Of a stretch of 64,000 nt of DNA, positions 57,741-60,224 are shown piece by piece. Under the pieces are notes generated by a model, which was given only the letters and a program-made list of their open reading frames with translations, searched no databases and had not been told where the DNA came from. Numbering within the stretch: position 1 is the stretch's first letter; each line of letters begins with the position of its first letter. Source of the stretch: Nitrospirota bacterium (lineage in GTDB: Bacteria > Nitrospirota > Thermodesulfovibrionia > Thermodesulfovibrionales > Dissulfurispiraceae). The stretch spans positions 1-64,000 of the forward strand of contig SCQE01000021.1 of the NCBI GenBank assembly GCA_004321915.1, written 5' to 3'. A program made the position numbers and the translations under genes.

Positions 57741-58628
57741 ATGAGATTGCAACGTACAATAAAAAAAGAGGTCACATTCAGCGGAATAGGTTTGCACACC
57801 GGCAAGCAAGCTGCGGTCAGGATTAAACCCGCTGCCCGCGATACCGGAATTGTATTTTACAGAACAGACAAAGGCGCCTTGATCAGGGCAAACATGGAGT
57901 CTGTAATAGATACCGCCTTCGCAACCACCATCGGCGTTAACGGCATAAAAATTAAGACGATAGAGCATATGCTGGCTGCAGCAGCCGGCCTAGGTATCGA
58001 CAACCTTTTTATAGAGGTCGAAGGGCCGGAGATACCTGTGCTTGACGGCAGCGCAATCGAGCTTACAGGCATCCTTCTTGAAGCCGGGATAGCAAAACAG
58101 GGCAAGAAAATGCCTTACATAAAAATATTGAAGCCTATAGTTTATGAAGACGCCCATTCGAGGGCCGTTGCAATACCTTTTGACGGCAGGCGCTTCTCTT
58201 ACTATATAAATTTCAGTCACCATATTCTCGGACAGCAGGAAATTACATTGGATATGGACGAAACTAATTTCGTAAAAGAGATAGCTCCTGCAAGGACATT
58301 CGGGTTCCTAAAGGATGTTGAGATGTTGAGGGCCAACGGGCTTGCCAAAGGCGGCTCGCTGGACAATGCAATAATAGTTGGGGAAAACGGTGTGATCAAT
58401 AAGTCGGGGCTTAGGTTCAAAGATGAGTTTGTAAGGCATAAACTGCTTGATTCTATTGGAGATTTGTCTTTAATAGGCTATCCGATACAGGGCCATATAA
58501 TGCTCGAAAAATCAGGGCATACCGCCAATCTGAACTTTTTGAAAAAGCTTATCGCCTCCTTCGACTCTTACACTCTGGTTTCAGAAGAAGTTGACCATTC
58601 AAGCCTGAAAGTTTTACACTACAACTAA
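57741..58628 (+). CDS. lpxC: UDP-3-O-acyl-N-acetylglucosamine deacetylase
   Basis: First committed step of lipid A synthesis, zinc-dependent. The 295-residue protein shows FSGIGLHTGK near residue 13, the zinc ligand in KTIEHMLAA near residue 74, the second site in FVRHKLLDSIGDL near residue 232, and the catalytic histidine near residue 258 in GHIMLEKSGHTANL. ATG 57741 fits the family start; there is no ribosome binding site, in keeping with a very short leader. The possible sigma-54 promoter is unusual for an essential envelope gene. Confidence 0.96.
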   Translation: MRLQRTIKKEVTFSGIGLHTGKQAAVRIKPAARDTGIVFYRTDKGALIRANMESVIDTAFATTIGVNGIKIKTIEHMLAAAAGLGIDNLFIEVEGPEIPVLDGSAIELTGILLEAGIAKQGKKMPYIKILKPIVYEDAHSRAVAIPFDGRRFSYYINFSHHILGQQEITLDMDETNFVKEIAPARTFGFLKDVEMLRANGLAKGGSLDNAIIVGENGVINKSGLRFKDEFVRHKLLDSIGDLSLIGYPIQGHIMLEKSGHTANLNFLKKLIASFDSYTLVSEEVDHSSLKVLHYN

Positions 58629-58638
58629 GGTAAAAAAG

Positions 58639-58714
58639 AGGGAATACCCAACTTTCCAGTTTCATCAGTGTAACGTTTTCCAAACCATTTTGGTAAAGTT
58701 TTTGGGTATTCCCT
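58639..58714. terminator. Bidirectional terminator between lpxC and the H1-like gene
   Basis: A 13-bp perfect inverted repeat (58639-58651 with 58702-58714) encloses a further imperfect stem (CTTTCC with GGTAAAG). The far side on the plus strand is AATTTTTC and on the minus strand CTTTTTTACC. It suits both lpxC and the convergent 24-codon gene. A MITE-like origin is possible. Confidence 0.7.
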
Positions 58715-58741
58715 AATTTTTCTCTGCTTCTGAAAGCTTAC

Positions 58742-58816
58742 TTATTTCTTCTTCGCTGCTTTCTTTGCCGGAGCCTTCGCTGCCTTCTTTGCCGGAGCCT
58801 TTTTTGCTGTTGCCAT
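58742..58816 (-). CDS. 24-residue histone-H1-like Lys/Ala peptide
   Basis: A 24-codon frame (ATG 58816, stop TAA) encodes a peptide built from two repeats of KKAPAKKAAK-type sequence, ending in KKK. The strong AAGGGGGTGA six nt upstream makes translation likely. Such Lys/Ala/Pro peptides resemble the tail of eukaryotic histone H1 and bacterial H1-like DNA compaction proteins, which are usually longer. It follows the winged-helix gene by 60 nt on the same strand, so they may be co-transcribed. Confidence 0.65.
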   Translation of the reverse strand: MATAKKAPAKKAAKAPAKKAAKKK

Positions 58817-58876
58817 TCTTGTTCACCCCCTTTCGATTCCTGCAAACCTCTTGATGCGCGTGCAGGAGCGTGTTAA

Positions 58877-59422
58877 TTAAGCCCTTCCCATAAGCGTGAT
58901 CCTTTTTTCCGCAAGGATCCGCTTAAGATTGGAGTCCTTAAGCTTTTTGGGTTTGTAGTCGTCCTCGTCTATTACCATGCAGTTCATTCTTTTCCCGAAT
59001 TTTTTCTCGATGTCCTGAAGCCCCATGAGAAAGGCCGGGGTCGAAGGGCCTACCACCACGAGGTCCACCGTATGGGTGTTTTCCCCTTCGGCGTATGGGC
59101 CGTAAATGAACGCGATCTTTATGCCGTTCGCCCTGAGCAGGCTTTTAAGCGCGCCGGGCAGGCCGAGAGATTTGGCTATGAGGTCTTTGAGTTCAACGAA
59201 GAGGGGGGAGTTTTTGTCTGCCTGAAAATATTTTAGGTTGGCCACCTTCTCGCTCGAAATGATCCCCATGCCTTCGAGTTTGTCCAGCTCTCTTTTTACT
59301 CCTGAGGGGTTTTTGCGGAGAAGGGTTGCGATTTCCCTGACGTAGAATTTTTCGTCGGGACTGTTAAGAAGCAGAGATAACACATCCGCTCTTATGGCTG
59401 ATGAGAACAAGCTCTTAAGCAC
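58877..59422 (-). CDS. Winged-helix regulator fused to a nucleotidyltransferase-like domain
   Basis: The 181-residue protein begins with a winged-helix domain (FYVREIATLLRKNPSGVKRELDKLEGMGII) and ends with a nucleotidyltransferase-like domain (IKIAFIYGPYAEGENTHTVDLVVVG), where a GS-x10-D-x-D motif of active MNT/KNTase domains is degenerate (GPYAEG, VDLVVVG). It may be an inactive NTase used as a regulator, as in other wHTH-NTase fusions. GTG 59422 has GAGGAG upstream and a near-perfect sigma-70 promoter. Partners other than the H1-like gene are not evident. Confidence 0.8.
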   Translation of the reverse strand: MLKSLFSSAIRADVLSLLLNSPDEKFYVREIATLLRKNPSGVKRELDKLEGMGIISSEKVANLKYFQADKNSPLFVELKDLIAKSLGLPGALKSLLRANGIKIAFIYGPYAEGENTHTVDLVVVGPSTPAFLMGLQDIEKKFGKRMNCMVIDEDDYKPKKLKDSNLKRILAEKRITLMGRA

Positions 59423-59442
59423 TGTAACTCCTCATACGAAAT

Positions 59443-59471
59443 ATTTTATACGAACTTTTTAGATTTGTCAA
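59443..59471 (-). promoter_or_regulatory. Strong sigma-70 promoter for the wHTH-NTase gene
   Basis: On the minus strand TTGACA (59471-59466), a 17-nt spacer and TAAAAT (59448-59443) form an almost consensus promoter. The leader would be about 14 nt. Confidence 0.75.
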
Positions 59472-59489
59472 CAGAAAAATTACATTTTA

Positions 59490-59539
59490 AAACGATAGTT
59501 GTTTTTTTGTGAACATTCTCATTAGAACAACAATCGTTT
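59490..59539. repeat. 14-bp inverted repeat upstream of the wHTH-NTase promoter
   Basis: AAACGATAGTTGTT (59490-59503) faces AACAACAATCGTTT (59526-59539), 13 of 14 pairs, 22-nt loop. It could be the operator of the wHTH protein or an IS terminus; it lies at the edge of the transposon scar. Confidence 0.45.
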
Positions 59540-59603
59540 AATAATTAAGAACAATCATTTCAATTTGCGGGAGGGCTGCGACGGGGATAAATTCCTTCCG
59601 TTC

Positions 59604-59777
59604 AAGGATGTGCCATAGTATGCCATTGAGTATATCGCGTGAGTTTCTTGGTGGTCGTCCACGACCATTGGGTTTGCATCGTGAGGCTGGTATTAGTGGC
59701 TCGACGCGCAGCCACTGTTCGTTTGCTCCTCTCTGGTTATTTCCAGAAAGATTGCAGAATTTGCTGAGGTGGGTCAA
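59604..59777 (-). mobile_element. IS5-family transposase N-terminal remnant
   Basis: The minus-strand frame has NEQWLRVEPLIP, GRPPRNSRDILNGILWHIL, the usual N-terminal domain of IS5-type transposases. It breaks after that segment at the 24-bp repeat at 59584-59607. No DDE residues remain, so it is not functional. Confidence 0.7.
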
Positions 59778-59830
59778 TTTTCGGTGCCGATTACACCCCT
59801 ATGTGGGTCATTATTGCACGCCGATTAACA
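59768..59830. mobile_element. IS21-like terminal repeats (remnant)
   Basis: Two similar 28-nt units, GTGGGTCA-...-GCCGATTACA (59768-59795) and GTGGGTCA-...-GCCGATTAACA (59802-59830), are 34 nt apart. Paired direct repeats of this GGGTCA...GTGCCGATTA form are typical of IS21 family ends. No transposase accompanies them. The insertion junction lies at the truncated toxin. Confidence 0.5.
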
Positions 59831-59911
59831 AATGTAAAGAAGACGCAGGATACGCCGGAACAGGAATTAAGAATTGCACGCAAAAGAATGAAGGAGGTAC
59901 AAAATGGCTGA
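59828..59911 (+). pseudogene. HigB/RelE-type toxin, 3' fragment
   Basis: The last 27 codons of a plus-strand frame read VKKTQDTPEQELRIARKRM and stop at 59911, overlapping the XRE gene start. This is the conserved C-terminal helix of HigB-type toxins (FVKKTQKTP...). The body of the toxin gene is missing, cut away by the IS21-like end. It shows that the antitoxin below is an orphan. Confidence 0.65.
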
Positions 59912-60224
59912 ATTAAAATATCGACCGGTTACACATGATCATGATGCGTTTCTCAATAAAGCCATGAGGCGCAAGGGGTTCAAGAAAGAGTATCTGGATC
60001 TTGGAGAGGAGTATACTCTTGTTCGTCAAATGCTTGCTGCCCGGTTACAGTCAGGCCTTACGCAGGAAGCGGTTGCCGAACGGATGGGAACTACAAAGAG
60101 TGCCGTTTCACGTCTTGAAGCAGCAGGCAAGCATGCACCATCTCTCACTACTCTGAAAAAATATGCCAAAGCAGTAGGATGCAATTTAGAAATTAAACAG
60201 TTGACGGCAGCAATAAAGGGCTAA
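59904..60224 (+). CDS. XRE-family antitoxin (HigA-like), orphaned
   Basis: The 106-residue protein has a C-terminal XRE helix-turn-helix, ARLQSGLTQEAVAERMGTTK then SAVSRLEAAG, and an N-terminal part typical of HigA partners (MRRKGFKKEY). ATG 59904 has GGAGGT upstream and overlaps the toxin remnant, the usual HigB-HigA order. With the toxin truncated it may still act as a repressor or decoy. It is likely a decaying module. Confidence 0.85.
   Translation: MAELKYRPVTHDHDAFLNKAMRRKGFKKEYLDLGEEYTLVRQMLAARLQSGLTQEAVAERMGTTKSAVSRLEAAGKHAPSLTTLKKYAKAVGCNLEIKQLTAAIKG

Follow-up and report, generated by a model that had tools for sequence, protein, structure and literature searches.

A 24-codon open reading frame (ORF), encoding MATAKKAPAKKAAKAPAKKAAKKK and closed by a TAA stop, is a real, conserved gene for a small lysine-rich polycation, kept behind a single regulator gene across the phylum Nitrospirota and varying freely in length among relatives. 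It occupies positions 58742..58816 of the window (the whole 64,000-nucleotide stretch of DNA analyzed here), with its ATG at 58816. It is thus encoded on the minus strand, a point that was left out of the initial annotation, and it has orthologues in relatives. Eleven of the 24 residues of the peptide are lysine, and the repeats for which the ORF was originally singled out are present: a tandem duplication at 58751..58798 (minus strand) consists of two 24-nucleotide units, 58751-58774 and 58775-58798, which form a direct repeat, are identical at 23 of 24 positions and encode KAPAKKAA twice. The strong ribosome binding site described with them can also be confirmed, as GAAAGGGGGTGA at 58823..58834 (minus strand), 6 nucleotides ahead of the ATG. 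However, this motif alone does not prove a gene, because the exact AAAGGRGGTGA occurs twice in the window and forms with at most one mismatch occur four times, versus 2.07 expected by chance. When ORFs were selected for at least 30% lysine and at least 85% lysine, alanine, proline and threonine combined, one was found in the 64-kb window and none in 40 first-order Markov copies.

The gene is flanked by inverted repeats on both sides. Upstream, a predicted hairpin (TCCTGCA...TGCAGGA; 58838..58867, minus strand) is placed between the stop codon of the regulator and the ribosome binding site, and possibly serves as an mRNA-stabilizing or processing element; in the window's family (f1) many of the spacers between regulator and ORF fold into a hairpin just 5' of the ribosome binding site, with differing sequences. 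Downstream, an inverted repeat (58632..58721) that has T runs on both strands separates the tiny ORF from the convergent lpxC gene (57741..58628, plus strand), a neighbor that served as a synteny marker and lies outside the unit. The arms of this repeat (58632-58651 and 58702-58721) are 20 nucleotides each, 90% complementary and 50 nucleotides apart; its fold has a z score of -2.16, with 6 of 200 shuffles folding equally well, and it is not among the calls of a simple terminator scan that allowed loops of 3-8 nucleotides. The terminator previously proposed beyond the stop is present as an inverted repeat with T runs, which is probably a bidirectional terminator for both convergent genes. Across relatives, a perfect inverted repeat of at least 8 bp lies within 110 nucleotides past the last ORF at 131 of 157 loci (raw count). 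A role as a leader peptide was considered and ruled out, since in the window the same strand holds nothing after the tiny ORF before the convergent lpxC.

Loss of the frame or of the ribosome binding site in relatives, which had been named at the outset as grounds for rejecting the gene, was looked for, and both are kept. In the only other genome of the genus examined, the 24-mer is identical and none of the 75 nucleotides of the ORF differs, while the regulator gene ahead of it is 90% identical in DNA and the sequence 3' of the ORF 98% identical. A protein search with the 24-mer reached 3 of 31 family genomes at E<=1, because so short and low-complexity a query scores poorly; DNA comparison and synteny reveal the rest. 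As the synteny anchor we used the upstream 181-residue regulator gene, which has a match at E<=1e-5 in 128 of 176 genomes of the order; the remaining 48 have no such match, and the system is hence not universal. The order sample comprised 124 anchor loci, in 123 of which the anchor was located by script. A lysine/alanine-rich ORF follows the anchor at all 117 order loci with at least 400 nucleotides of downstream sequence, and the count is likewise 117/117 under the stricter filter applied outside the order. Among the 6 order loci with less than 400 nucleotides downstream, G144 has the ORF and G142 ends inside the anchor; in G031, G036, G037 and G054 the lysine-rich ORF runs off the contig end. 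As for the other four of the 128 anchor genomes, the ORF is present behind the anchor in G173, G087 and G106 have paralogous anchors only and served as controls, and G166, at a contig edge, was not included. The regulator locus of G161 fell below the script threshold; an exact-pattern search finds the ORF beside its partial regulator.

The same arrangement extends beyond the order. In a phylum sample of 395 genomes, the order included, the anchor was detected at E<=1e-12 in 153, of which 50 are outside the order (three of these, G196, G222 and G393, were left out), and the ORF was found at 46 of 47 loci there (39/40 and 7/7). The exception, G230, has a contig that ends 542 nucleotides past the anchor, in a stretch largely filled by a HEPN-like gene. 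As a negative control, we considered nine paralogous regulators with 28-41% identity, eight of them with at least 725 nucleotides downstream and one (G139) with only 363; none is followed by a lysine-rich ORF within the sequence examined, versus 3 of 3 additional orthologous anchors. A search for an exact DNA pattern of the gene gave a concordant picture in the order: all 62 positive genomes have a regulator match, and none of the 48 match-negative genomes is positive. The pattern match adjoins the anchor in 60 of these 62 genomes and lies on another contig in G096 and G097; in these two genomes, tiny H1-like start patterns away from the regulator (G096:C50:6305 and G097:C35:167921) occur besides the ORF at the regulator. 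Of 21 exact-pattern loci with an anchor match, 20 are labelled Nitrospirae, Nitrospirales, Nitrospira, Nitrospiraceae or Thermodesulfovibrionales, and one "uncultured bacterium".

The substitution pattern is that of a translated gene. Since counting synonymous changes among identical peptides would be circular, we discarded that count and used sister pairs instead: in the first ORF of 17 chosen pairs there are 43 synonymous versus 8 nonsynonymous codon differences, whereas 26% synonymous would be expected from random change (p=2e-18). The 17 pairs were chosen from 26 tried, with only the first ORF taken where two stood in tandem. Pairs were left out where the first ORFs were of unequal length (G011/G012, G016/G017, G152/G153) or where a genome was reused or a close pair repeated (G007/G010, G131/G132, G131/G133, G159/G160, G162/G163); a further omitted pair, G060/G062 (both of 57 residues, with internal indels), runs counter to the trend, with 16 synonymous and 22 nonsynonymous differences in its ungapped part. 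Four-fold sites differ at 26 of 206 positions in the ORF versus 225 of 663 in the regulator gene (p=8e-10), indicating that expression-linked codon choice or an RNA constraint acts too. Together, synteny, the retained frame, the ribosome binding site and the mainly synonymous substitution strongly support the earlier proposal of a real translated gene.

We recorded the anatomy of the genes in a set of 178 ORFs, 123 from the order and 55 from the first 40 loci outside it. Their lengths range from 13 (MAAKKKAAKKKKK) to 160 residues, with 139 having at most 30 residues and 71 at most 20. The families differ in this respect: the lengths are 13-15 residues in f11, 18-23 in f9, 21-33 in the window's family (the 33 of G017 reflecting an upstream ATG picked by the script), 27-39 in f12 (apart from one ORF of 107), 37-90 in f7 and 75-160 in f5; two or three lysine-rich ORFs stand in tandem at 17 loci. 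In f11 (L167-L181), genes of 13-15 codons (MAAKKKAAKKKKK and alike) are found in 15 of 15 loci, and those with the same peptide are nearly invariant in DNA. Over the 178 ORFs we counted 2609 lysines, 1876 alanines, 676 threonines, 254 prolines, 38 arginines and 6 acidic residues, the order-wide composition being 43% lysine, 35% alanine, 13% threonine and 5% proline. The 10-nucleotide AAGG[A/G/T]GGTGA precedes 141 of the 178, a shorter listed form 31 and none of the listed forms 6; the start as scripted is ATG in 171, and the second residue is alanine in 164. Some of the scripted starts are poor, as in G017 and in G059, where the script took a GTG rather than the TTG after it, which has an ideal ribosome binding site. 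Thus, charge, the near-absence of acidic residues, a mostly alanine second position and strong translation signals are constant, whereas length, repeat order and copy number are free, which points to a polyelectrolyte rather than to a fold or a specific interface. The peptide of the window is, as had been remarked, much shorter than known H1-like proteins; yet with 13-160 residues encoded at the same locus, it marks the lower extreme of a single length series and is no isolated case.

The regulator gene (58877..59422, minus strand), which probably forms one operon with the tiny ORF, encodes an ArsR-like winged helix and a degenerate nucleotidyltransferase-like domain. In Pfam, the ArsR-type winged helix (PF01022) is matched at 4e-5 (23.8 bits, the cut-off being 22), and the nucleotidyltransferase match is sub-threshold only. 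The PADLOC model PDC-M05A (PDLC04368), which gives no curated cut-off, matches residues 3-180 at E=1.2e-36. An AlphaFold model of the protein has a mean pLDDT of 88.8 and a pTM of 0.60; in Foldseek searches with it, ArsR-type repressors are the best matches, two of them at E<0.001, followed by weaker ones to chains of HEPN-MNT complexes (8xeh_E at 2.7e-3, 6m6w_F and 6m6u_A; E 2.7e-3 to 4.5e-3). When PDB sequences were searched with the aligned regulators, no match was found up to E=0.01. The canonical nucleotidyltransferase motif consists of Gly-Ser followed by an Asp-x-Asp pair (GS...DxD). In 44 aligned regulators, residue 109 is proline in 40 and serine in one, and residue 118 is aspartate in none (threonine in 26), with aspartate at residue 120 in 33; judging from these residues, the domain looks inactive.

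In the distant families f18, f23, f25, f26 and f31, a HEPN-like gene lies between the regulator and the tiny ORFs; in L229, L230 and L232-L249, one to three tiny polylysine ORFs lie past this gene, and some of the peptides end in cysteine. One HEPN-like protein was scanned from each of f18, f23, f25 and f26; all four match PDC-M05B, and three score above the Pfam HEPN cut-off. The HEPN RNase motif Rx4-6H was tallied in 20 loci, with G197 set aside because it had been read in the wrong frame. Among the remaining 19, four f25 proteins (G179, G188, G230, G234) have R-x4-H (RSRDTH or RGRDPH), a possible RNase motif, at a shared place, so that the HEPN domain cannot be called inactive; two f26 proteins (G180, G198) have the motif near the C-terminus, and 13 are without it. 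In the window, the tiny ORF is the only gene on the same strand between the regulator and lpxC, and there is no M05B HEPN gene. The Nitrospirota operon hence resembles a HEPN/nucleotidyltransferase module fixed at one place, without its HEPN gene in the window, and this gene may have been lost in the order rather than never having been there.

A candidate promoter for the operon, of the sigma-70 type (TTGACA-17-TAAAAT, 11/12), lies just upstream of the regulator at 59443..59471 (minus strand), and TTGACA-N15..19-TAnnnT was found upstream of 106 of 158 anchors, including 27 of 27 in the window's family. At the same promoter, inverted AACGATNGTTGTT half-sites (59491..59538) form a candidate autoregulatory operator. 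The two halves are the only exact copies of AACGATNGTTGTT in the genome; with one mismatch there are 10 genomic sites versus 9 for the reversed control, so that near-matches carry no signal. The wider motif AACnnWYGTT occurs upstream of 68 of 158 anchors (23 of 27 in the window's family), as compared to 87 of 3160 mononucleotide shuffles; it is in none of the examined upstream regions of several families. From these motifs it can reasonably be inferred that the regulator autoregulates the operon via AACnnTCGTT-type sites. Upstream of the operon, an ORF at 59538-59777 reads like a fragment of an IS-type transposase, and this is where the congener ceases to align.

In comparison with known systems, the closest likeness in composition is to the H1-like proteins, namely Hc1 and Hc2 of Chlamydia, the Burkholderia-type NF038053, AlgP and the C-terminal domain of HupB. 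They share with the tiny peptides a lysine/alanine/proline composition, KAPAKK-, PAKK- or KAAK-type motifs, a presumed charge-based binding to DNA and a repeat-driven variation in length, which is also described for Hc2. In contrast to these proteins, the peptides are of at most 30 residues in 139 of 178 cases, are all tail without a second domain, stay behind one regulator gene phylum-wide and reach the cut-off of no H1-like model. Searches of Pfam and NCBIfam with the 24-mer gave no family up to E=1, and a 27-residue relative scored 11.9 bits against the cut-off of 80 for NF038053. The label "H1-like" in the initial annotation is accordingly apt for composition and motif, but is not borne out by the family models. 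Protamines and polyamines are small polycations as well, and condense DNA while lacking a fold; from these the tiny peptide differs in using lysine instead of arginine and in being a gene-encoded bacterial peptide. As regards motif function, the tail through which HupB binds DNA is reported to be built of PAKK/KAAK motifs (PMC5676037), and in vitro DNA binding is reported for KPAA peptides from AlgP (PMC9239181).

The operon as a whole is most like PDC-M05, which combines the M05A nucleotidyltransferase with an M05B HEPN protein: the regulator matches M05A, and the HEPN-like neighbors of four distant families match M05B. It differs in the absence of M05B from the window, in the degenerate motif and in the extra gene for a tiny polycation; the main text of the account of PDC-M05 contains neither "lysine" nor "histone" (PMC12988326). 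A likeness to the HEPN/MNT toxin-antitoxin system MntA-HepT is seen in the weak Foldseek matches, which rank below several ArsR-type repressors; unlike MntA-HepT, the regulator has a winged-helix fusion, Gly-Pro in place of Gly-Ser and, in 44 of 44 sequences, no first aspartate of the Asp-x-Asp pair. Neither tiny H1-like genes in Nitrospirota, nor this operon, nor free-standing H1-like peptides as small as these were the subject of any paper returned by our literature searches. A lysine-rich protein resembling an H1 tail is of a known kind; what appears new is its small size, its place in a fixed operon and its spread across the phylum.

Similar tiny genes are also encountered elsewhere. The window's own genome contains, at G000:C82 (L262 927-1127), a 66-residue H1-like gene (MATAKKAAPKKAAAKKPAAKK...) with AAAGGAG ahead of it, and other genomes of the family have DNA matches of a similar kind away from the anchor. 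An exact-pattern scan of genome contigs yielded 46 stretches, two of which (L075, L078) contain no such ORF under the filter. In Verrucomicrobia records (L066, L072, L074, L077, L086), tiny ORFs rich in lysine, alanine and proline are situated beside a gene read as mutS, and in Acidobacteria records (L082, L092, L107) beside transporter-like genes, these names being a reading of the sequence. The genes have 17-45 residues and strong ribosome binding sites, and within each group they share a recurrent context; several are followed by hairpin-like sequence, and other records contain single cases. The non-Nitrospirota stretches, of at most 8 kb, have no regulator match.

We favor, with some reserve, a DNA-directed function, in which the product of this regulator-led operon would be an unfolded polycation that neutralizes and condenses DNA. 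The tiny gene would make an abundant, unfolded peptide equivalent to a free-standing fragment of a histone H1-type tail, which would bind nucleic acid by charge and help to neutralize and condense the nucleoid. With eleven lysines in 24 residues, the peptide far exceeds the charge that small cations need to condense DNA. The regulator, as the first gene of the operon, would probably repress its own strong promoter and thereby set the dose of the peptide, which would be encoded by the last gene. The intercistronic hairpin, the near-ideal ribosome binding site and the strong 3' hairpin would in turn allow the second cistron to be expressed far above the first.

This preference for DNA has to be weighed against other partners of the same peptide. 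RNA, ribosomes or polyphosphate would be equally good targets for such a charge, as the same logic applies to them, and a polycation directed to one of these rather than to chromosomal DNA is a less probable but serious alternative. In favor of RNA, the operon in its distant form includes a gene for a HEPN-like protein, and a review ascribes RNase activity to most members of the HEPN superfamily (PMC3710099); in favor of polyphosphate, the H1-like AlgP is reported to act on polyphosphate granules (PMC9239181), and both therefore remain live rivals. On the other hand, the peptide has no motif specific for RNA or ribosomes, and KAPAKK-type motifs are, in the reports at hand, best documented for DNA-binding tails (PMC9239181, PMC5676037). 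A more specific proposal is that the peptide is a partner of the regulator, and distantly also of the HEPN-like protein; within a domesticated PDC-M05-type module it would serve as ligand, as inhibitor or as a signal of dosage. This accords with the strict linkage to the regulator orthologue, with the coincidence of pattern and regulator match (62/62 positive genomes versus 0/48 match-negative ones) and with the matches to PDC-M05A (1.2e-36) and PDC-M05B (4/4 scanned neighbors). Nevertheless, we regard it as unlikely: the Verrucomicrobia and Acidobacteria genes are in stretches of up to 8 kb without a regulator match, G096 and G097 have the pattern on a non-regulator contig and the window's genome a 66-residue H1-like gene elsewhere, the range of 13-160 residues argues against a specific interface, and the nucleotidyltransferase motif is degenerate.

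Two further explanations dispense with the peptide as the principal product. The conserved element could be mainly an RNA, i.e., a small RNA, a stability element or the bidirectional terminator, with the ORF secondary to it; the low four-fold divergence of the ORF relative to the regulator gene, the hairpins flanking it on both sides, and its lack of any nucleotide difference between the two congeners next to 98% identity 3' of it are all compatible with this. Yet the frame, the start, the ribosome binding site and the lysine/alanine content persist over 13-160 codons and the changes are mainly synonymous, which makes such an element improbable; a structured RNA of a known family is ruled out by an Rfam search of 58000-60000, which gave no match up to E=1. 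That the ORF is spurious, arising by chance in low-complexity sequence, could be argued from its shortness, its low complexity, its lack of a family model and the mere 3 of 31 family genomes reached by the 24-mer at E<=1. Synteny, the 0/40 Markov copies, the 43:8 substitutions, the ribosome binding site and the 0/9 paralogues rule this out, leaving it with a vanishingly small probability.

A wider reading, somewhat less likely than not, is that several phyla encode free-standing "micro-H1" polycations of 13-30 residues, acting as gene-encoded, dose-regulated counter-ions of the nucleoid and sized between polyamines and H1 tails. In Nitrospirota, a HEPN/nucleotidyltransferase-type module would have become a housekeeping regulator with these peptides as its conserved product, and the 13-residue gene would rank among the shortest conserved protein-coding genes. 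Being short and low in complexity, conserved and probably strongly translated genes of 13-30 codons can escape notice across a whole phylum. The operon also ties a regulator of a candidate-defense type (PDC-M05A) to a chromosomal location that is kept in place across the phylum. Finally, the natural series of 13-160 residues at one syntenic place poses the question of how little suffices to organize a nucleoid.
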